Shown here: positions 8,686 to 41,855 of the stretch, piece after piece
Layout of the letters: each line of letters starts with the position of its first letter
How positions within the stretch are numbered: position 1 is the first letter of the stretch
Position numbers and translations under genes: made by a program
The notes under the pieces: generated by a model
Told to the model about the DNA's origin: nothing
Databases searched by the model: none
What the model saw: only the letters and a program-made list of their open reading frames with translations
Virus record (IMG/VR): IMGVR_UViG_3300031576_000001
Coordinates: 1-64,000 of that record
Source: a virus
Direction: 5' to 3' (one strand)
DNA: 64,000 nt

Positions 8686-11600
8686 ATGCTGGTTCTCGAC
8701 GACACACGGGCGAAGGTCTATCAGGGCGACAGTGAGTTTGAGCTAGGAGAGCTAGCCAGCGAGTCTATAGACAGCATGGTGACCGACCCTCCCGCGGGAA
8801 TCGCTTTCATGCACGGTAAGACTTCCGGCTGGGATGCTCCCTCTACGTGGAAGTACCCTATCACCAGCCACGGCTTCAAGGATGACCCTGGTAAGTTCAG
8901 AAACCCGGCACCCTCGATAGGGCAGAGCACTCGAAACCCGGTGTGCCAGGTCTGTCACAAGCACAAGCGGGGTAAGAAGCGCTGTCAGTGTGAAGAGCCG
9001 GAGTTTGACGAGCGCGAACACGCCCGAAGCGACCGTGACATATTTATTGCCAAGATGACGGCAATCTTCAAGGAGTGCCTTCGAGTGCTCAAGCCAGGGG
9101 GTCACGCTGCGGTCTGGGCTATCCCTCGTACTGCACACTGGACCGCCATGGCGCTAGAGGAGGCGGGCTTTGAGGTGCGCGACTGTATATCGCACCTCAA
9201 AGACAACTCAGCCGAGCTAGCTAGCTTCTTTGAATCACTCTCGCCCTCTCAGCGTGAAATGTGGATGCGCGCCGAGCCTACCAACGGCTTGATGCTACAC
9301 GTCAACGGGAGCGGGTTTCCCAAGGGAAGAAATATCAGTAAAGAGATTGACGCGCAGTACGGGCGCATTCGATCCTCCGTGAAGCAAGTCAAGCAATCCC
9401 TGCGTGAGAAGTTTGACGCCAGTGGGAAGACCCGTACACAGATTGACAAGGAGTGCGGGTTTCGAGCCAGTAATTACCTCTCCGTAGAAGACGACACCAA
9501 GAGGGATGACCCTTGGTTTAACGTACTGCCCTCTCCTGAAAAATGGCTTGTCCTAAAAAAAGTGCTCGGGCTAGAGGACGAGACAGTCAGTGCCCAGCTA
9601 GACCAGTGGTTCAAGCAAGCCGAGCGTGAGCTTGTGGGTTGGAAAAAGACCGGTCCAGGGATACCCTTCTCTACAGCGGGTGGGCCTACGGAGCTACCTA
9701 TTACAGAGAGTCAGACGCCAGAAGGTAAGCAGTGGAAAGGGTGGAACGTAGCACTCAAGCCCTCTGTAGAGCACTGGCTACTCGTCCGTAAGCCTCTTTG
9801 TGAGGGTACCATTGTGGCTCAGGTTCTTGCCACCGGGACGGGGGCTCTCAACATTGACGCTTGCCGTGTCAAGGGTGGTGCGGGCTACGAAGAGGAAGTA
9901 GCCAAGAACATGGCTTCCTTCAAGAAGCTACATGAGAAGACTCCGGGCTGGAAAAACTCATCTGAGTTTGCCCCTGACGTGGACGGAGCCATGCTGGGTA
10001 GGTGGCCGTCTAACCTCCTCCTCAGTCACACGCAGAGGGTCATGTGTCAGCCCCGCCCTGACCTCTCCGCTGACGTGAAGGCTACGCTGTGGGCTTACTT
10101 TGAGTCGGAGCCCACCGAGGAGCTAGAGGTACGCCAGGAGGCAATCCCTCTTGGGTGGCGCCAGCTTTTCCTCCCTGTGCGTATCGAGGGTTGTAAGCAC
10201 GTAGGGACCAAGATTGTCCGTGCCCCGGTCATCAACCGGTTCGTGGACGGCATGAGGCCCTTCGGTGAGGGTGCGGGTCACAAGTACACTCAGACCGGGG
10301 GTGGTGTAGAGTCCCAAGCTGTTACAGACTGCAAACCCCCCTGCCCCGTGCCCGTGCTGGACAACCAAAGCGGTGACCGTAAGTCTCACGACACGGCTGA
10401 CACGGGTGGTTTTCGAGAGTCTATGCGAGACCCTTCCTGGCTAAAGAGTGGTACCCAACCCTCTTTGCCTCCCGGTCGGGGTGACACGGGCGGGGCTAGT
10501 CGGTTCTTTCCTGTGCTCTGTGCCCCTGAAACTCTAGACAACCAAAGCGGTGAGACCCGTAGTGCTTACCCTGGTAACCCCCAAGTGGCTTCAGCCTACA
10601 ACGCCAGGGACAAGTCAGACCAGAAGTCCCCCAAAGATGTCATCTTTGGGGGTAAAACCCCGGGGAAGGTCTACGGGGACACAGGGAGCGTCTCTCGGTA
10701 CTTCCCTGTCTTCTCTTGCGCGGCTGGCAGCCTGGATGACCAAAGCGGGGAGCGTCGTGGGGGTGGACCTGTTTACACAGCCAACCAAGGTAAGGGTTAC
10801 TGGGCAGGGGGTATGACTGGCGTGGCTACGCCTTTTAGCAGAGAGGCTGACGATGGGGGCGCCTCAAGGTTCTTTCCCACGTTTACTTGCGCGCCCGACA
10901 CCTTGGACAAGCAAACTGGGGAGAGAACCTCGACCCTCACCGGTAAAGCTGACCCCTCTCGCGCCCACACCAACCCAGGTCAAACGTCCAAGGAGTACCT
11001 CTGGGGTAACATCGGTCACGAAGCCTCAACCCATGTTTACGCTGACTCTGGTGGGGGCTCCCGGTTCTTCCCCACGTTTAGCCCGGATTGCGCTTTGCAT
11101 ATCCTCGATATGCAAAGCGGTGACCTCACACCCCACGCGCACAGAGAGGGTTACACTCCGAGGCTGGACACTGGCGTGTACAACCCTGGGCGCAAGGGTT
11201 CTCAAAGCGTGTGGGGTGGGGTTGCCCGGGGGGGCGCCTCTCAGTTTTACCCGTCATTTAGTCCCGAGTGTGCTTTGGAGGTTCAGAACCTCCAAAGCGG
11301 TGACTTGCGCGGAAACACTGGTGGTTCCGGGGGGGTAAGCTCAATCTTTGGTGGGCTCGACGCTTCAAAGACAACCTACAAGGCTTACGGCGACCACGGG
11401 GGTGCTGCTAGGTTCTTCCCCTCCTTTGAGCCCGAGTGCGTCCCGAGTCTCATTGATGCACAGAGCGGGGAGACGGTCTCTTCGCCTCGTACCGGTGACG
11501 ACGCGGGCACCGCCATGGATAAGACCCGTGAGGGCTGGCGGTTCAAGCGAGCTAACGGGGGGTTCTCCGACTCAGGGGGTGGCTCACGGTTCTTCCCCTC

Positions 11601-12114
11601 CTTTGAGCCCGATTGTCCTCTGAACGTCAATGACGTTCAGAGCGGGGTGTCTGTGTCTAGGGCGGGTGGCGTCGCAGGTGGTGAAATCTTCGGTAGTGCC
11701 ACAGGGTTTGTACCACGGAAGGGTCAGAATGACTCTGGTGGGGGGGGTCGCTTCTTCCCCTCGTTTGAGCCTGACCCTACCTTGCCTCCCTTCTACTACA
11801 CGCCCAAGGCGTCTACCGCGGATCGCATCTTGCCTGACGGGTCGAAATCACCTCACCCAACGGTCAAATCGCACGCCCTCATGTCGTGGCTCATCAAATT
11901 GGTCACACCGCCGGGTGGGGTAGTTCTTGACCCCTTCTCAGGTTCCGGGTCCACGCTAGTCTCGGCTGTCAAGCTGGGCTTTCGAGCCGTGGGTATAGAG
12001 CAGGACGAGACCTACATTGGGGTCATCCGTCAACGCCTGGCGGCAGCGCTGGCAGAGAGCACCGACAATGTAGCCAGTCGTGCTGCAATGGACCTAATGC
12101 ACGACATCGAGTGA
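8686..12114 (+). CDS. Beta-class DNA methyltransferase with eight tandem QSG...GGxSRFFP units
   Basis: Transfers methyl from SAM to an exocyclic amino group of DNA (N6-adenine or N4-cytosine). Motif IV is TDPPAG near residue 33 (usually DPPY/W). Motif I, DPFSGSGST, is near residue 1082, giving the permuted beta order. A Cys-rich insert (CQVCHKHKRGKKRCQC) follows motif IV. Known enzymes of this type have one LDxQSG...GDxGGASRFFY segment before the C-terminal domain. Here the segment is repeated eight times between residues about 556 and 1045, with different spacer sequence each time. At 1142 aa it is far longer than usual. It may be a modification enzyme protecting phage DNA. Confidence 0.85.
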   Translation: MLVLDDTRAKVYQGDSEFELGELASESIDSMVTDPPAGIAFMHGKTSGWDAPSTWKYPITSHGFKDDPGKFRNPAPSIGQSTRNPVCQVCHKHKRGKKRCQCEEPEFDEREHARSDRDIFIAKMTAIFKECLRVLKPGGHAAVWAIPRTAHWTAMALEEAGFEVRDCISHLKDNSAELASFFESLSPSQREMWMRAEPTNGLMLHVNGSGFPKGRNISKEIDAQYGRIRSSVKQVKQSLREKFDASGKTRTQIDKECGFRASNYLSVEDDTKRDDPWFNVLPSPEKWLVLKKVLGLEDETVSAQLDQWFKQAERELVGWKKTGPGIPFSTAGGPTELPITESQTPEGKQWKGWNVALKPSVEHWLLVRKPLCEGTIVAQVLATGTGALNIDACRVKGGAGYEEEVAKNMASFKKLHEKTPGWKNSSEFAPDVDGAMLGRWPSNLLLSHTQRVMCQPRPDLSADVKATLWAYFESEPTEELEVRQEAIPLGWRQLFLPVRIEGCKHVGTKIVRAPVINRFVDGMRPFGEGAGHKYTQTGGGVESQAVTDCKPPCPVPVLDNQSGDRKSHDTADTGGFRESMRDPSWLKSGTQPSLPPGRGDTGGASRFFPVLCAPETLDNQSGETRSAYPGNPQVASAYNARDKSDQKSPKDVIFGGKTPGKVYGDTGSVSRYFPVFSCAAGSLDDQSGERRGGGPVYTANQGKGYWAGGMTGVATPFSREADDGGASRFFPTFTCAPDTLDKQTGERTSTLTGKADPSRAHTNPGQTSKEYLWGNIGHEASTHVYADSGGGSRFFPTFSPDCALHILDMQSGDLTPHAHREGYTPRLDTGVYNPGRKGSQSVWGGVARGGASQFYPSFSPECALEVQNLQSGDLRGNTGGSGGVSSIFGGLDASKTTYKAYGDHGGAARFFPSFEPECVPSLIDAQSGETVSSPRTGDDAGTAMDKTREGWRFKRANGGFSDSGGGSRFFPSFEPDCPLNVNDVQSGVSVSRAGGVAGGEIFGSATGFVPRKGQNDSGGGGRFFPSFEPDPTLPPFYYTPKASTADRILPDGSKSPHPTVKSHALMSWLIKLVTPPGGVVLDPFSGSGSTLVSAVKLGFRAVGIEQDETYIGVIRQRLAAALAESTDNVASRAAMDLMHDIE

Positions 12115-19541: not shown

Positions 19542-21101
19542 ATGGGCCAATCCAAGTCGCACAAGAACTTCATGGCGGGCACGAGCTACACAGTCTCGCC
19601 CCTACTCACCCTTCGTATCGCAGCGGCGTCGTGCTTCTTCGGGGAGCCCACGTTCTACGGAGCCAAGGACAGCAAGCCGGTCGCGCCCTCCCAGCAACCC
19701 CAAGCGGTACAGAAGCACCTGAGTGTAACCCTCGGGGGTCTGGGGCAACCTGACTTCTCGGGGCTCACGCCCTCTCAGCGCATGGAGAAGGTCATTGACA
19801 ACGCGCTCGACGCGGACCCCGAGGCTACCCTCCAAGAGGCGGTTCTGCTCCGTAAGCAGGGTCACATTCGTACCACGCCCCAGGTCATCATGGTCCGGGC
19901 GGCGCGTCACCCCAAGGTGAGGGGCACGGGGCTCATCCGGCAGTACGCACCCAACATCCTGTCCAGGGGGGATGAGTCAGCGGTACAACTCAAGTACCTC
20001 AGCAACCTAACGGGCAAGGGGCCCATCCCCAACGCCCTCAAGAAGGCGTGGGCTGCTCACCTCTCGGGCATGAATGAGTACACGCTGGCCAAATACGCCA
20101 AGGACGGGCTGACCGACGTGGCGAACGTGTGTCACCCCGCAGGCAACCCTCTCTTGGAGAAGCTGGTCAAGGGCAAGCTCTCTCAGGGGGGCTCGACTTG
20201 GGAAGCCATCGTGAGCAAGGATGGCTCGACCAAGGAGGCATGGTCCAAGGCGGTCTCCGTCATGGGGCACATGGCGCTCCTACGCAACCTGCGCAACTTC
20301 CACGAGAAGGGCGTAGACCCCGCCGTCTACCTGGACAAGCTGGTGAACACCGCCAAGGACGGCAAGCAATTGCCGTTCCGCTACTGGTCCGCTTACAACG
20401 CCCTATCCGAGGGGAGCGCTACCACGCGGCAAGCCATCGAGGAGTGCTTGAAGAACTCGCTGGGTTTCCTGCCCTTCTTCAAGGGTAAGGTCGCGTCCCT
20501 CTGCGACAACTCAGGTTCCGCGGTGTCTGCCCGGGTGTCGTGCATGAGCGACGTGAACGTGGCGACCATTGCCAACCTCTCGGCGCTTCTCACGGGCTAC
20601 CAGTCGGACGAGGGCTGGGTCGGGCTCTTTGGGGACCGGCTTACGATGCGCCAGGTGGACCGCAGCAAGGCGCCCCTGGCTCAGCTTGCCGCTCTGAACG
20701 TGCTGGGTAAGCAGGTAGGCGGCTACACGGAGAACGGGATTTGGCTCTTCTGGGACGAGGCGATCCGCACCAAGAAGCACTGGGATCACGTTTTTGTCTA
20801 CAGCGACATGCAAGCCGGTCACGGTGACTTGTACGGCTCAGACCCGAGCCAATACAAGGCTTTCCAGTGGGTTCAGAACCCCAGCCACATTGACGTGGCT
20901 CGTCTCATCGGAGCCTACCGCGCCAGCGTGAACCCGAAGGTCAACGTGTTCCTGGTTCAGTGCGCGGGCTACGCAGACGCGATCCTGCCCGAGGAGTACT
21001 ACCGCACCAGCATCCTCGGCGGCTGGGGTGACGGTATCTTCCACTACGCGGACCAGATGACCCGTCTCTTTGACGGTCTGGACGCTTCGCAAGCAACTTG
21101 A
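19542..21101 (+). CDS. Ro60-like TROVE-vWA protein, 519 aa
   Basis: Ro60 (Rsr in bacteria) is an RNA-binding ring that holds Y RNAs and misfolded RNAs for quality control. The HEAT-like TROVE domain fills residues about 30-310 (TPQVIMVRAARHPKVRGTG, NALKKAWAAHLSGM). A von Willebrand A domain follows with the MIDAS motif DNSGS near residue 321 and SDMQAGHGD later. Length fits the family. A Shine-Dalgarno (CAGGAGCAG) precedes the ATG. It sits between RNA elements and tRNA genes, as bacterial rsr often sits beside Y-RNA genes. Ro homologues are known in some tRNA-rich phages. Confidence 0.85.
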   Translation: MGQSKSHKNFMAGTSYTVSPLLTLRIAAASCFFGEPTFYGAKDSKPVAPSQQPQAVQKHLSVTLGGLGQPDFSGLTPSQRMEKVIDNALDADPEATLQEAVLLRKQGHIRTTPQVIMVRAARHPKVRGTGLIRQYAPNILSRGDESAVQLKYLSNLTGKGPIPNALKKAWAAHLSGMNEYTLAKYAKDGLTDVANVCHPAGNPLLEKLVKGKLSQGGSTWEAIVSKDGSTKEAWSKAVSVMGHMALLRNLRNFHEKGVDPAVYLDKLVNTAKDGKQLPFRYWSAYNALSEGSATTRQAIEECLKNSLGFLPFFKGKVASLCDNSGSAVSARVSCMSDVNVATIANLSALLTGYQSDEGWVGLFGDRLTMRQVDRSKAPLAQLAALNVLGKQVGGYTENGIWLFWDEAIRTKKHWDHVFVYSDMQAGHGDLYGSDPSQYKAFQWVQNPSHIDVARLIGAYRASVNPKVNVFLVQCAGYADAILPEEYYRTSILGGWGDGIFHYADQMTRLFDGLDASQAT

Positions 21102-32051: not shown

Positions 32052-32624
32052 GGGCACCTTGACCTTGTTGACGAGATTGATACCCATAGCCTCTTGGGAG
32101 GTAAGGAACCAATCGGAGCGCCCCCGTAGTTGGCTCTCATTCCACAGAAATCCCCGCTGGCAGCCTATGTTGCGCTCCATGATGCCCCACAGCTTTCTGT
32201 TGAGGCGTAGCACCTCGCGGGTAGCCAGACCCATCTCTTCAGCCTTACCCTCGGTAAAGCTGGCCACGTCGTGTAGCATGAGGGTGGCGTTGGGCGCTGC
32301 AAACCGGTAGCCCTCGCTACCGCACGAGAAGAGCACTGCCCCGCACGACATTGCCTTGCCCTCGACCACGGTGGCTATCTTCACCTTGGTTGACTTCAAG
32401 GCGTCAAGCATGGTCAGCAAGGCGTACACGTCCCCCCCGAAGGAGTTGATGACCACGGGGATGAGGGTTTGCTTTGCGGCTAGCGCCAGGTTCAAGTCCT
32501 CGATAAACCTCTTGGCGGCAAGCTCAGAGAAGCGCCTGACGTGGATAACCCTGGGGCGATTCAGGAAAAGCTCATTGGGGTCGCGAATGCGTATCTGTCT
32601 GTCTACCTGAAAGCGCTCAATCAT
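32004..32624 (-). CDS. ClpP-like serine protease, 206 aa
   Basis: Peptidase S14 fold. NSFGGDVYALLTMLDAL is the oxyanion-hole segment; the nucleophile is the Ser of KAMSCGAVL; the His lies in LMLHDVASF about 25 residues later. ClpP-like enzymes in phages often mature the prohead, or may cut host proteins with an ATPase partner; none is seen here. Overlaps the upstream phosphoesterase stop (ATGA). Confidence 0.8.
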   Translation of the reverse strand: MIERFQVDRQIRIRDPNELFLNRPRVIHVRRFSELAAKRFIEDLNLALAAKQTLIPVVINSFGGDVYALLTMLDALKSTKVKIATVVEGKAMSCGAVLFSCGSEGYRFAAPNATLMLHDVASFTEGKAEEMGLATREVLRLNRKLWGIMERNIGCQRGFLWNESQLRGRSDWFLTSQEAMGINLVNKVKVPSFITHVRVESTLDWR

Positions 32625-33799
32625 CGGGCCATTCCCTGGTAGACTGCTCTAGACCCCCCACGGAAGCCATCCTCGATGCGTGAGGGTTGCTCAACCTCAA
32701 AGTAGCTGCGGTACTTGAGGTTGAAGTCTCGCATGGTGCCGTCCTCCGTGAGCCCCCAGGAGAGCACAAGCCCACCGATGGCGGGCGCTCCTCCGAGAGA
32801 CTTAGAGAAGGCACTGCCGCCCCCTTGGAAGGTGGGGCAGGCGATACCGTGGACTCCCCGCTCCATGACGTGACAGAAGACGTGCCAGTGCCCGCAGAGT
32901 AGAACGTGGGGCTTCTCCCCAGACGAGTAAGTCTCAATGATGCGCTGGACCTTGTAACTCTTGGCATACCCATTGCCAGACCGAGGGTGCCACAGGTGAA
33001 AGACCGCGCCCCTGAGACGGACGAAAGCCGAGCGGTCCCCGTAGAACTTGAGGTCCGTGCGACCATTTTCCACGAAGAATCGCGAGAGATACGCCCCCAC
33101 GTCAATCCCGGCGCTGTCCGTGAACGTGTAGTCGTGGTTGCCCGTGATCCCGTGGTACGTGAGCCCTGGTAGCTGGGGGAGGGTCTCTAGCAAGTCGCGG
33201 GCTTGCTCTTCCAACCCCATGTGGGTCATCTCAAACTTGGCGTGCCGGTAGTCCCCGTCTACCACGTCGCCAGGGTGAAGGATCTCCCTCACCCCCTCTG
33301 CGTAGGCATGGTGAATGAAGTCCTTTAGCTGCGCCCGTAGACAGAACCGGCTTCCCAGGTGGGTGTCCGATATAACCCCCACCTTGTGCTCCCCGCCGAC
33401 GACAGGTTTGACTCCGGCGTCCTGCACCCGGTCCTCGACCGTATTGTTCTTGCGCCCGACCGAGCCACCCTCGTCCATCTGGACGCTCATTCCGCGGGCC
33501 TGAGCCTCCTCGATGAGTTTCTCTAGCTTCCTGGGGGAAATGTCGAGGGTGTTGCACAGGTCCACGGAGCTATGTGGCTTGCGGGTCAGGGTGGCTAGGC
33601 GCTGGACGAGGGGGGCGGGGCTCCCCTGGCAGAAGTCCTTGGGGCTGCCCTGCCCTCTGTGCGAGAATGCACGCCTTACGCTGTCCGTGGTGGTGCCCAG
33701 CTCCTCCGCGCACTTCTTCAGGGCGTCGCCGTAAGCCTCGGGGCGGTATCTTTTCAGGATTTTCTCGGCTTGTGCGTAGACTTCCGGTGTCCAATTCAT
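32621..33799 (-). CDS. Calcineurin-like metallophosphoesterase with N-terminal HTH region, 392 aa
   Basis: Metal-binding motifs in order: DTHLG near residue 145, GDVVDGD, GNHDY, and GHWH near 305. This order is that of the Mre11/MPP superfamily. The first 130 residues are helical with features of DNA-binding helix-turn-helix units (EELGTTTDSVRRAF, LDISPRKLEKLIEEA). Substrate unknown; DNA or cyclic nucleotides are possible. Upstream partner of the ClpP-like gene. Confidence 0.8.
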   Translation of the reverse strand: MNWTPEVYAQAEKILKRYRPEAYGDALKKCAEELGTTTDSVRRAFSHRGQGSPKDFCQGSPAPLVQRLATLTRKPHSSVDLCNTLDISPRKLEKLIEEAQARGMSVQMDEGGSVGRKNNTVEDRVQDAGVKPVVGGEHKVGVISDTHLGSRFCLRAQLKDFIHHAYAEGVREILHPGDVVDGDYRHAKFEMTHMGLEEQARDLLETLPQLPGLTYHGITGNHDYTFTDSAGIDVGAYLSRFFVENGRTDLKFYGDRSAFVRLRGAVFHLWHPRSGNGYAKSYKVQRIIETYSSGEKPHVLLCGHWHVFCHVMERGVHGIACPTFQGGGSAFSKSLGGAPAIGGLVLSWGLTEDGTMRDFNLKYRSYFEVEQPSRIEDGFRGGSRAVYQGMAR

Positions 33800-34377: not shown

Positions 34378-36306
<1,929 letters not shown>

Positions 36307-37933: not shown

Positions 37934-39003
37934 GCACCACTACGCCAGAGTCGGGGCACCTTCTTATCGCCTTTGGGGGCGAAGCGTACCTCTTGGACGA
38001 GGTAGCTTCTCGGTCAGCCCAGCCTAGCAAGGCGCACCGTGTTGTGACGCTCTCTGGGGAGGGTGGCGTCGAGCCCGTGCTTGCTGCGTTGGAGCAACGG
38101 GGTGTAGACGACCTCCCCGTGGTGGTCGTGGTGGACGACGCTCAGATTATCAAGGCGTCCCCCGACCTGAAGGCATGGTCAGACCGCACGCAGACACGCG
38201 CCTCTTTGGTGGCGGTCTGTCGCTCAGAGACCCTCCCTGCGTTCTGGGCGTCACTCAAGACCGCCAAGCGCATCGAGCGCCCCAAGTTCAAGCCGTTCTC
38301 AAAAGACTTGCCAAGGTGGGTCGCTGAGCAAGCCAAGAAACGCAAGGTCAAGCTCTCTGAGAAGCAAGTCGCCGCTCTGGTAGAGAACCTGGGGCACGAC
38401 CTACGCATCCTCTCCGGTGAGCTAACCAAGCTGGCGCTCGTGGTCTCCCCGGACTGCGAAGTGTCCCCAGAGAATTTTGCCCGGTACGTGGTGGGCTGCA
38501 ACGAGGTCACGCCGTACAACGTGGCAGAGAACGTAGCGGAACGTAGCCCCGCGCCCGCGCTCAAGGCACTCTCCCGGCTGGTGGATCGAGAGGGTGAGGC
38601 TTGCCTTGTCCCCGTGGTTGTCAGCACCACCAAGCTCCTTGAGAAGCTCTTGCTGGCGTCCGCCTTGCAGAGCAAGAAGACACCCCCAGATGAAATCGCT
38701 GCCAGGGTGGACGTTCACCCTTGGCGGTACAAGACCTGGCTAGTACCCTTGGCGTTGAAAAGAAGCGCTGGCGAGTATCGCAGCGCGTTCCGGGTGCTAG
38801 CTGACCTAGATGTAGACGTGAAGACCCTTCCGAGGTCCAGACTGTCCAGGGTGGAATCCGCTCTGGTTGAACTGTCTCTCTTAGAGGGGTGCTCCGTGAC
38901 TGTTTTCGTTAGCAGTCAGACCGCCATGCCTTTTCTGGAAAACCACAACCCTCTTACGGAACCGAAACACCCATGGTCTCGTCCTCTACCTCTTTGCGCC
39001 TGA
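37930..39003 (+). CDS. holA: DNA polymerase III clamp loader subunit delta
   Basis: Opens the sliding clamp. Starts GGEAYLLDEVA like the family, with AAA+ domains I-II lacking a Walker A. LPRWVAEQAKKRKVKLSEKQ and NLGHDLRILSGELTKLAL match the HolA pattern of the second domain, followed by the helical collar domain. 357 aa is typical. Coupled to holB. Confidence 0.8.
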   Translation: MSTTTPESGHLLIAFGGEAYLLDEVASRSAQPSKAHRVVTLSGEGGVEPVLAALEQRGVDDLPVVVVVDDAQIIKASPDLKAWSDRTQTRASLVAVCRSETLPAFWASLKTAKRIERPKFKPFSKDLPRWVAEQAKKRKVKLSEKQVAALVENLGHDLRILSGELTKLALVVSPDCEVSPENFARYVVGCNEVTPYNVAENVAERSPAPALKALSRLVDREGEACLVPVVVSTTKLLEKLLLASALQSKKTPPDEIAARVDVHPWRYKTWLVPLALKRSAGEYRSAFRVLADLDVDVKTLPRSRLSRVESALVELSLLEGCSVTVFVSSQTAMPFLENHNPLTEPKHPWSRPLPLCA

Positions 39004-41855
39004 GCCCTGATTTCCTACGCCCCTACCGTATCAAGGGAGACTGCTTTGAGAGTCTCTTGGCAAGGTCCACGTATCTCACGAAATACTGCCGTGGTACTGA
39101 GACGTGGACTGATACAATTCGCCGTGTTGTCGAGGGCAATTGCTCTATGGTCCCTGGGGTTAGCATGGGGGAGGCTGAGGCTCTGTTTGAACTGTTCTGG
39201 ACGATGCGGTGCCTTCCTCCAGGTCGTGCTCTTTGGATTGGTGGTGTCTCTGGGGTTCCGGGTGATTCTGTATTCAACTGCTACAGCACAACGATCCGTA
39301 CACCCGAGGACTGGTGCTGGGGTATGAATCAGCTCATGCTAGGAGGGGGTGTTGGTTTTTCCCTCTTGGCTGTTGACGGTCTGCCCTTTGTGAAGAAATC
39401 AGACTCGGCGGCACTACGAATACTCTGCGACCCCGGGCACGCTAATGCTGAAGAAGTGCAACCCGACAAGGTACGAGGGCAAGGGGTCTTTTATGAGGTA
39501 GCTGACAGCCGGGAGGGTTGGGTAGAGGCACTCAGGCGTGTTCTACTAGCGGCGTACAACGGGTTCAACCTCAACTTGGACCTTACTAAGGTGCGGAGCC
39601 GTGGTTCCCCTCTGAAGACCTTTGGTGGGGCGGCTTGTGGGCCTGGACCTTTGGCTAGCTTGTTGCGAATGGTTTGGGGTGTTGTGCGTGGTGCCTCGGG
39701 GCGCCGGCTGTCCAGTGTCGAATGCCTGGATATCGTGAACTTGATTGCTTTTTGCATCAAGAGTGGGAATATCCGCAGGTCTGCAACGTGCGTGCTGGGT
39801 AATCCTTATGATCGTGAGTTCCGCGACGCTAAGAAAGATTGGGAGAAGGTTGCAGCCTACAGGCACACAAGCAACAATTCAATTGTATTTCGCACCAGGG
39901 AGGAAATCGCTAGCTTTGATTGGAAACAGCTTGTTATGGACAACGTGAAGTATGGCGAACCTGGCGTCCTCAATCTCTATAAAGTGTGGCAAACTGACCC
40001 AGGTGCTACCGGCATAAATCCTTGTCAACCAGCATGGGCTCCCGTACTGACGCCTGACGGGATACGCAGGCTAGGCGAGATCCAAGTGGGTGACACCGTT
40101 TGGGGTGGCAAGGCGTGGACCAAAGTGGTGAGCAAGTGGAGTACAGGTGTCAAGCCTATTTTCCGTTACCGTACCACGGCTGGCACCTTTGTAGGGACGG
40201 CTAACCACAAGGTCTTTCAACAGGGAGAGCGTGTAGAGGTCAAGGACGCAGGAGCTATTGACCTGAGCCTCGGTGCCCCGGACGTTGACGTGCCGCATGA
40301 CCCTCAGACTGTGATGGATGGTCTGCTTGTGGGTGATGGTTACGTCAAGCCCTGCAAAGCCGTGGAGTACCCTTTGCTCATTGTGGGAGCTAAAGATCAA
40401 GATTACTTCACAAGCGAGGTGAGTCACCTCTTGAATCGTGTAGCGTTCGACAGACTACAGCACCGTGCGGTCACCAGCCTGCGGCGCGTTGACCTGGCAA
40501 AGCTACCTGAGAGGGTGGTGCCTGCGCAGTATTACCACGGCAGCACCAATACCGTGCGGTCTTTCCTCCGGGGTTTGTACTCGGCTAATGGTTCCGTGGT
40601 GGCGAACCGTGTCATGCTCAAGTCTACCTCAAAGAGACTGGTGGAGCAGGTACAGCACATGCTGTCCGCTCTAGGAATACCGTCTTACGTCACCACGAAC
40701 AAGGCTACTCAGGTGACATTCGCAAACGGAGCCTATATCTGCAAAGAGAGTTACGACATAAACATCACCACGGGGCGTCGTGAGTTTCAGCGCCAGATTG
40801 GCTTTCTACAAGGCTACAAGCAAGACAAGCTCAAGCAAGCCTGTACTGTAGCTGCCACCACCAAGCCCATTAAAACCACCTACGACGTGGTAGCTGTGGA
40901 ACCTCTTGGTGAAGAGGAAGTTTTTGACATCACAGTAGAGTCAGACGAACATGCTTACTGGACAGGGGGTTTGCTGGTTTCTAACTGTTTTGAGATCCCG
41001 CTGCACGACCGAGAGGCTTGCAACCTGTCAGAGGCTTTTCCTTCCAGGTTCACAACGCCTGCTAGTCAAGTCTTCAACTTGCTAGCCAGGTACACCTTGC
41101 GGCAAAAGCTGCATGTTCTCACGGACACTGAGAGCGATATGGTAAATCGCAATAACATGCGAATCGGTGTAGGTCTTGGGGGTCTGTGCGACTTCGATTG
41201 GACCTCCGACACCTTGCAATCTTGGTACTCTGTAGTGCGAATCGAGTCTACACGTTATGCTAAAGAGCTAGGGGTGCCAGACCCGATCACTGTATCGTGC
41301 ATCAAACCCAGTGGGACAATCAGTCTTCTCTGTGGGTCGTCGCCTGGCATACACGCGCCCTACGCCCCGTATTACCTGCGGCGCACCCGTATCGCCAAGA
41401 ACGACCGGATGGCTTCTGCTATGATGCGTGCAGGCGTGCCCTTTGCGGACTGCATTTACGACAAGACCGGGCACACCTGGGTCTTCTCGTTTCCCACCAA
41501 AGCCAAGCACACCCGGCTCACGGTACAAACGGAGAGCATCCGTGACCAGTTTGAACGCCAGGTCGCCGTCCAAGAGAACTGGGCAGACAACGCGGTTTCG
41601 GCTACGCTCACGTTCAACCAAGACACAGAGAGGGGTGAGCTAGAGCGCTGCCTCAAAGAGTACGTGCCCAGGCTCAAGGCAACCTCCTTCCTACCCAAGG
41701 CGCACGGTTACGCTCAGCCCCCCTACGAAGAGATTACCGAGTCCGTCTACAACGACCTCATGAAACAGATCGACCACACGTCTACCCTCCAAGAGGGCTG
41801 GGGCGGTGACATGGAAGTCGAGGAATGTCAGGGTGGCGCGTGCCCCGTCCGTTGA
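38973..41855 (+). CDS. nrdJ: Class II (B12-dependent) ribonucleotide reductase with intein
   Basis: Makes deoxyribonucleotides aerobically or anaerobically without a small subunit. FNCYSTTIRT holds the first redox Cys. After splicing, NPCFEIPL carries the thiyl-radical Cys and the catalytic Glu, and EACNLSE the second redox Cys. KPSGTISLLCGSSPGIHAPY and the C-terminal CQGGAC (Cx4C shuttle pair) complete the set. The extein is 639 aa. Residues 351-671 are an intein. The start overlaps holA by 31 nt. Confidence 0.85.
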   Translation: MVSSSTSLRLSPDFLRPYRIKGDCFESLLARSTYLTKYCRGTETWTDTIRRVVEGNCSMVPGVSMGEAEALFELFWTMRCLPPGRALWIGGVSGVPGDSVFNCYSTTIRTPEDWCWGMNQLMLGGGVGFSLLAVDGLPFVKKSDSAALRILCDPGHANAEEVQPDKVRGQGVFYEVADSREGWVEALRRVLLAAYNGFNLNLDLTKVRSRGSPLKTFGGAACGPGPLASLLRMVWGVVRGASGRRLSSVECLDIVNLIAFCIKSGNIRRSATCVLGNPYDREFRDAKKDWEKVAAYRHTSNNSIVFRTREEIASFDWKQLVMDNVKYGEPGVLNLYKVWQTDPGATGINPCQPAWAPVLTPDGIRRLGEIQVGDTVWGGKAWTKVVSKWSTGVKPIFRYRTTAGTFVGTANHKVFQQGERVEVKDAGAIDLSLGAPDVDVPHDPQTVMDGLLVGDGYVKPCKAVEYPLLIVGAKDQDYFTSEVSHLLNRVAFDRLQHRAVTSLRRVDLAKLPERVVPAQYYHGSTNTVRSFLRGLYSANGSVVANRVMLKSTSKRLVEQVQHMLSALGIPSYVTTNKATQVTFANGAYICKESYDINITTGRREFQRQIGFLQGYKQDKLKQACTVAATTKPIKTTYDVVAVEPLGEEEVFDITVESDEHAYWTGGLLVSNCFEIPLHDREACNLSEAFPSRFTTPASQVFNLLARYTLRQKLHVLTDTESDMVNRNNMRIGVGLGGLCDFDWTSDTLQSWYSVVRIESTRYAKELGVPDPITVSCIKPSGTISLLCGSSPGIHAPYAPYYLRRTRIAKNDRMASAMMRAGVPFADCIYDKTGHTWVFSFPTKAKHTRLTVQTESIRDQFERQVAVQENWADNAVSATLTFNQDTERGELERCLKEYVPRLKATSFLPKAHGYAQPPYEEITESVYNDLMKQIDHTSTLQEGWGGDMEVEECQGGACPVR
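40023..40985 (+). mobile_element. Intein with LAGLIDADG endonuclease, 321 aa
   Basis: Starts with Cys1 after NP, has TANHKVFQ as the block B TxxH motif, DGLLVGDGYV and RGLYSANGSV as the two LAGLIDADG helices, and ends VSN before Cys+1. Cys+1 is the catalytic radical Cys of the reductase. Confidence 0.85.

Follow-up and report, generated by a model that had tools for sequence, protein, structure and literature searches.

An Eightfold Array of Variable Units in the Target-Recognition Region of a Phage Beta-Class DNA Methyltransferase: A Candidate for Multispecific Methylation

The Methyltransferase Gene and Its Product

The window analysed here, the first 64 kb of a virus record of 322,633 bases, carries at positions 8686-12114 of the plus strand a gene for a beta-class DNA amino-methyltransferase of 1142 residues, recognised by comparison with Pfam and PHROGs and referred to below as P0001. 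Its sole Pfam match is N6_N4_Mtase (E 2.2e-22, above the family cut-off), and among the PHROGs it matches phrog_67, DNA methyltransferase (E 4.2e-44). Motif IV, read from the sequence as TDPPAGI (the DPPA subtype), begins at residue 33 (8782-8802, on the plus strand like all other coding features of this gene). A motif X-like stretch, FYYTPKASTADR (FYYTPKAS), was located at residue 1036 by alignment with relatives (11791-11826), and motif I, LDPFSGSGS, at residue 1081 by Pfam and the same alignment (11926-11952). The order of elements is motif IV, a very long target-recognition region, X, and I; this arrangement, with IV ahead of the recognition region and X and I behind it, is that of the beta class. 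The product is a phage orphan beta-class DNA amino-methyltransferase that probably acts on adenine N6.

P0001 belongs to the phrog_67-type family, which includes single-unit enzymes of Mycobacterium phages ThulaThula (gp61), Pelly (gp59), and MooMoo (gp65) and of Corynebacterium phage Kimchi1738, on the basis of the DPP of motif IV and the motifs GSGFPKS, ALKPAxEP, NIDxCR, GRWPxN, LDxQSG, GGASRFF, HPTVKP, and DPFxGSG. The single-unit enzymes have one copy of the variable segment described below, whereas P0001 has eight. The literature searched contained no characterised specificity for any of these single-unit enzymes.

In beta-class N6/N4 amino-methyltransferases motif IV usually consists of D or N, two prolines, and an aromatic residue. 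P0001 departs from this pattern, having DPPA and not DPPY at 8785-8796. The same form, DPPAGIxF(M), is present in 20 of the 82 relatives read, among them L006 and L136, which are otherwise intact; a motif IV subtype devoid of the aromatic residue thus seems to be stable and conserved, its activity being putative. The same virus encodes a second methyltransferase of this family, with one unit (L007:888-3443, at about 217.4-219.9 kb of G000), in which an insertion with weak Pfam matches to inteins and Hint domains lies just N-terminal of the C-terminal catalytic part. A similar insertion is apparently present in the 882-residue homolog from Mycobacterium phage RedBird.

The Array of Eight Units

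The recognition region contains two kinds of variable segment. The first, V1, is present in a single copy between NIDACRV and GRWPSN (9871-9996) and is delimited by alignments and by its reassortment in cultured phages. The second occurs within an array of eight LDxQSG...GGxSRFFP units, each preceded by Cys, that spans residues 558-1025. The first anchors start at residues 558, 617, 683, 740, 807, 867, 923, and 982, and the second ones at residues 602, 667, 724, 789, 849, 905, 964, and 1018. Defined by this anchor pattern, unit 1 (LDNQSG...GGASRFFP) occupies 10357-10512, unit 2 (LDNQSG...GSVSRYFP, the variant second anchor at residue 667 being read from the sequence) 10534-10707, unit 3 (LDDQSG...GGASRFFP) 10732-10878, and unit 4 (LDKQTG...GGGSRFFP) 10903-11073. 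Unit 5 (LDMQSG...GGASQFYP, with the second variant anchor at residue 849) occupies 11104-11253, unit 6 (QNLQSG...GGAARFFP) 11284-11421, unit 7 (IDAQSG...GGGSRFFP) 11452-11598, and unit 8 (NDVQSG...GGGGRFFP), which adjoins motif X, 11629-11760. The anchors of three units are degenerate: unit 5 has QFY and lacks the Arg that is otherwise invariant, and in units 6 and 8 the LD is incomplete.

The inserts between paired anchors, hereafter V2, are 30-44 residues long. The unit pattern is found eight times in P0001 and not once when the repeat region is shuffled 2000 times, which bears out the first-pass annotation in its description of an eightfold segment with a different spacer each time. At the DNA level a repeat finder detected a 44-nt anchor in seven copies of 64-82% identity to the reference copy. 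The eight V2s are no more similar to one another than shuffled sequences are, and a comparison with the pool of V2s from relatives gave similarities at chance level, with none matching. Recent copying of one insert within P0001 was considered and rejected, since matches between its V2s are only those expected by chance.

The anchors are under purifying selection. Between units, 52-55% of the third codon positions differ, compared with 23-26% of the first and second positions, and in an all-against-all Nei-Gojobori comparison of the anchors of the eight units pS was 0.72, pN 0.21, and pN/pS 0.29. These differences, together with the unrelated inserts, indicate old units that have stayed in frame and are maintained by selection at the protein level.

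Four of the units also carry perfect hairpins, revealed by a palindrome search: one of 12 bp with a 1-nt loop within unit 2 (10628-10652), and three located exactly at unit starts, namely 13 bp with a loop of 3 nt for unit 5 (11091-11119), 13 bp with a loop of 1 nt for unit 6 (11272-11298), and 12 bp with a loop of 1 nt for unit 8 (11618-11642). The remainder of the window and another 100.8 kb of the virus, about 160 kb together, yielded no further stem of at least 12 bp with a loop of at most 3 nt. The hairpin scores of the units of P0001 fall into two classes, 4-5 for those without a hairpin and 12-13 for those with one, with no intermediates. In all four cases a motif that is conserved or recurs (DxQSG, NLQSG, VIFGG) is encoded by the 3' arm, of which the 5' arm is the reverse complement. 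Our guess is that the hairpins originated by templated foldback mutation, and a role for them in cassette exchange is conceivable. The idea that hairpins are common to V2 units in general was rejected, none of the 123 units of relatives reaching a score of 9. A further perfect palindrome of this size class (12-13 bp), with an 11-nt loop, is located in the same gene at 9168-9202; palindromes of this kind cluster in the one gene.

One Unit as the Rule among Relatives

Eighty virus loci were retrieved with a profile of five homologs, and 74 methyltransferase ORFs were readable in them. Nearly all follow one layout, GRWPAN...LDEQSG (or FPxTKSG), a variable insert, and GDSGGASRFFY, and the last anchor has an invariant R, F, and F in the alignment of relatives. 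More than ten other virus genes (L226, L230-L235, L155, L220, L222, L217, L238, L010/L241, and L242) proved to have arrays of two to four units. They came from a targeted search by junction patterns and a profile of the unit; among the loci retrieved by the five-homolog profile, a less biased sample, L155 is the sole multi-unit gene, and arrays are therefore rare. The eight units of P0001 form the largest array seen. At the other extreme, the insert is nearly absent from the relative in Arthrobacter phage Renna12. The claim that the segment is single in relatives consequently holds for most of them, but not for the viruses with two to four units, nor quite for Renna12. The multi-unit relatives from IMG/VR resemble P0001 in their tandem anchors with different V2 inserts and differ from it in having fewer units, in the duplication of V1 in some of them, and in their V2 types, which are unmatched in P0001.

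In three of these genes V1 and V2 are duplicated together within one polypeptide (L226:47-2104, L230:1743-4244, and L233:2607-4748), the duplicated block running from ARKPL via NIDxCRV and GRFPAN to GGASRFF. L260:2218-4461 is of another kind, a fusion of parts of two whole methyltransferases.

Other searches for arrays gave little. A single-protein scan for close relatives of P0001 found no stretch encoding one. The junction pattern, which needs TTCTTC codons and misses other codings, matched two stretches in prokaryote genomes; neither contains an ORF with a tandem junction, and both were taken as chance matches and discarded as arrays. An AT-rich version of the pattern had no match in the virus contigs. 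In a tblastn search of the phage record collection a three-unit query retrieved one record and the P0001 array 27 weak matches, and all seven genes opened from these matches are single-unit; the sensitivity of tblastn for arrays is low because V2 is of low complexity.

Exchange of V1 and V2

In the single-unit enzymes of mycobacteriophages V1 was taken as the segment from NIDACR to GRWPTN and V2 as the second variable segment. Pelly and Pollywog are identical in V1 and only 28% identical in V2, while ThulaThula and Pelly share V2 at 100% and V1 at 12%. Likewise, the V2s of Pollywog and RedBird are identical and their V1s 23% identical, and GreaseLightnin and ThulaThula have V2s of 95% and V1s of 20% identity. 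V1 and V2 thus assort independently in cultured mycobacteriophages.

Among virus relatives taken as random pairs, V2 is 27% identical, compared with 47% for the N-terminal backbone and 52% for the C-terminal part. V2 nevertheless comes in discrete types, often common at 60-100% identity to enzymes whose backbones are 33-67% identical. Identity in V2 and in the backbone is, respectively, 60% and 33% for L222/L296, 59% and 37% for L135/L267, 66% and 52% for L185/L235, and 89% and 67% for L231/L235. Sixty V2 pairs exceed the score threshold, against 0.9 expected; near-duplicate loci or over-long segments account for some of them. Not every pair shows the excess, other V2s being less similar than their backbones.

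Whole units also change place. Unit 4 of L226 and unit 1 of L233 have an identical V2 at different positions of their arrays. Between L233 and L235/L236, in which both flanks are 98-99% identical, one V2 unit has been lost and another gained, and the alignment blocks have 41 nt in common at the conserved anchors, as expected from recombination between anchors. In composition V2 is rich in Gly, Ser, Thr, and Asn; its net charge is -1 to +2 in the units of P0001, the mean of the pool being +1.4.

Structure and Comparison with Known Systems

In the AlphaFold model of the single-unit relative L136 the catalytic core is confident and V2 has low confidence. The core superposes on two DNA-bound beta-class adenine methyltransferases, M.BceJIV (Z 27.3) and CcrM (Z 27.1), and the catalytic fold is thus shared with these enzymes; the profile alignments listed to solved relatives cover only the two catalytic halves, and V2, which lies outside them, has no counterpart there. 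For P0001 itself the mean pLDDT is 52, and the model is uninterpretable in units 2-8, which are without aligned homologs.

Two known systems offer parallels. The C5 methyltransferases of Bacillus phages SPR, phi3T, and H2 are multispecific orphan enzymes in which tandem recognition modules serve one catalytic core (PMC8936443). P0001 is like them an orphan phage methyltransferase with tandem modules, to which we ascribe a recognition role, and one core; multispecificity, however, is proven for the Bacillus phage enzymes and inferred for P0001. They also have another fold and motif order, and the modules of P0001 are far shorter and more numerous. Its sole Pfam match being N6_N4_Mtase, P0001 has a core other than that of the C5 enzymes and stands outside their family, although it would work alike.

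The second parallel is with the recognition domains of Type I (HsdS) and Type III systems, for example in Helicobacter pylori, in which near-identical homology groups move by recombination at conserved flanks (PMC3983042). The family of P0001 resembles HsdS in having two variable halves per protein, discrete types, and probable recombination at the flanks, and independent recombination of the two halves, as in HsdS, is seen in the single-unit mycobacteriophage relatives. HsdS, though, is a separate subunit with one pair of target-recognition domains, whereas V1 and V2 are parts of the methyltransferase itself and V2 is multiplied in P0001.

A Candidate Multispecific Methyltransferase

The sharing of V2 types, the gain and loss of whole units, and the reassortment of V1 and V2 match the behaviour of target-recognition domains and argue for V2 as a recognition module. 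The reading that we prefer, with a probability of roughly 0.6, is that P0001 is a multispecific amino-methyltransferase in which a single V1 is combined with eight exchangeable V2 cassettes that each add a specificity, and from which the phage draws an anti-restriction benefit. The target-recognition region would be composed of V1 and of eight V2 cassettes set between the anchors Cys...LDxQSG and GDxGGxSRFFP. Each V2 would have its own sequence specificity, giving the one catalytic core several motifs to methylate and in this way shielding the phage genome from several host restriction systems, while recombination between the conserved anchors would let the array grow, shrink, or change. The proposal of several recognition modules, made in the first-pass annotation, gains strong though indirect support from V2 types common to divergent backbones, from whole units gained and lost between near-identical viruses, and from the reassortment of V2 independently of V1 in cultured phages; that V2 contacts DNA and that the eight V2s confer different motifs are predictions from sequence comparison, and protection from restriction is the presumed benefit. 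Counted against the multispecific reading are the low AlphaFold confidence of V2 and its lack of a counterpart in the listed alignments to solved relatives, and also, in P0001 itself, V2s unmatched elsewhere, unit 5 without its Arg, the partial LD of units 6 and 8, and DPPA in motif IV.

If the multispecific reading is true, a phage amino-methyltransferase would be a rack of swappable specificity cassettes, its anti-restriction breadth would be readable from sequence, and moving a short V2 between enzymes might change the methylated sequence. Multispecificity by tandem target-recognition domains, known from cytosine-C5 enzymes of phages, would then reach the N6/N4 enzymes as well, where the modules number up to eight. 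The hypothesis is already testable in cultured mycobacteriophages, some of which agree in V1 and differ in V2 while others show the reverse. A bolder version, which we put forward only tentatively, combines the one V1 half with each of the eight V2 halves, so that eight motifs, possibly bipartite, would be methylated at once by an enzyme whose array is rewritten at the anchors and whose hairpins would be traces of the origin of variants.

Of the alternatives, an in-frame store of cassettes would have only the unit adjacent to motif X (or the first one) in recognition and the others as recombination donors, giving one specificity at a time. The movement of units as wholes and the degenerate anchors of units 5, 6, and 8 suit such a store, but silent donors would not need anchors jointly under purifying selection in all eight units, each of which is in frame and translated; we consider it unlikely. 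Similarly improbable is a structural role of the repeats as scaffold or flexible spacer, with anchors that fold or bind a partner and inserts that are unconstrained loops. The composition of V2, its low model confidence, and the near absence of V2 in Renna12 would fit, yet unconstrained loops should outpace the backbone in divergence, and in many pairs V2 is more similar than the backbone, apart from V2 being reassorted as a block. The scaffold or decoy function offered earlier as an alternative is weakened on both counts, since V2 can exceed the backbone in conservation and carries no strong negative charge. A decoy for a host restriction or defence protein, such as a DNA mimic, is suggested by short modules in tandem and is very improbable given that V2 is near neutral or positive, unlike acidic DNA mimics, and that the same segment sits in the recognition region of single-unit enzymes. 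Least credible is an assembly artefact, the local error against which the annotation had warned: the source is a metagenomic virus contig and a second contig with the array of P0001 was not found, but the units are in frame, diverged at synonymous sites (52-55% of third positions, pS 0.72), and furnished with eight distinct inserts, and multi-unit genes are present in other virus contigs.

Other Genes of the Virus

Elsewhere the virus encodes an exonuclease/SbcD-like protein (32621-33799, minus strand) and, on the plus strand, a GroEL-like chaperonin (34708-36306) and a ribonucleotide reductase (38973-41855). It also has a gene for a TROVE-domain (Ro-like RNA-binding) protein at 19542-21101 of the plus strand, with a Pfam E of 2.3e-10 and a match to phrog_850, RNA-binding protein.
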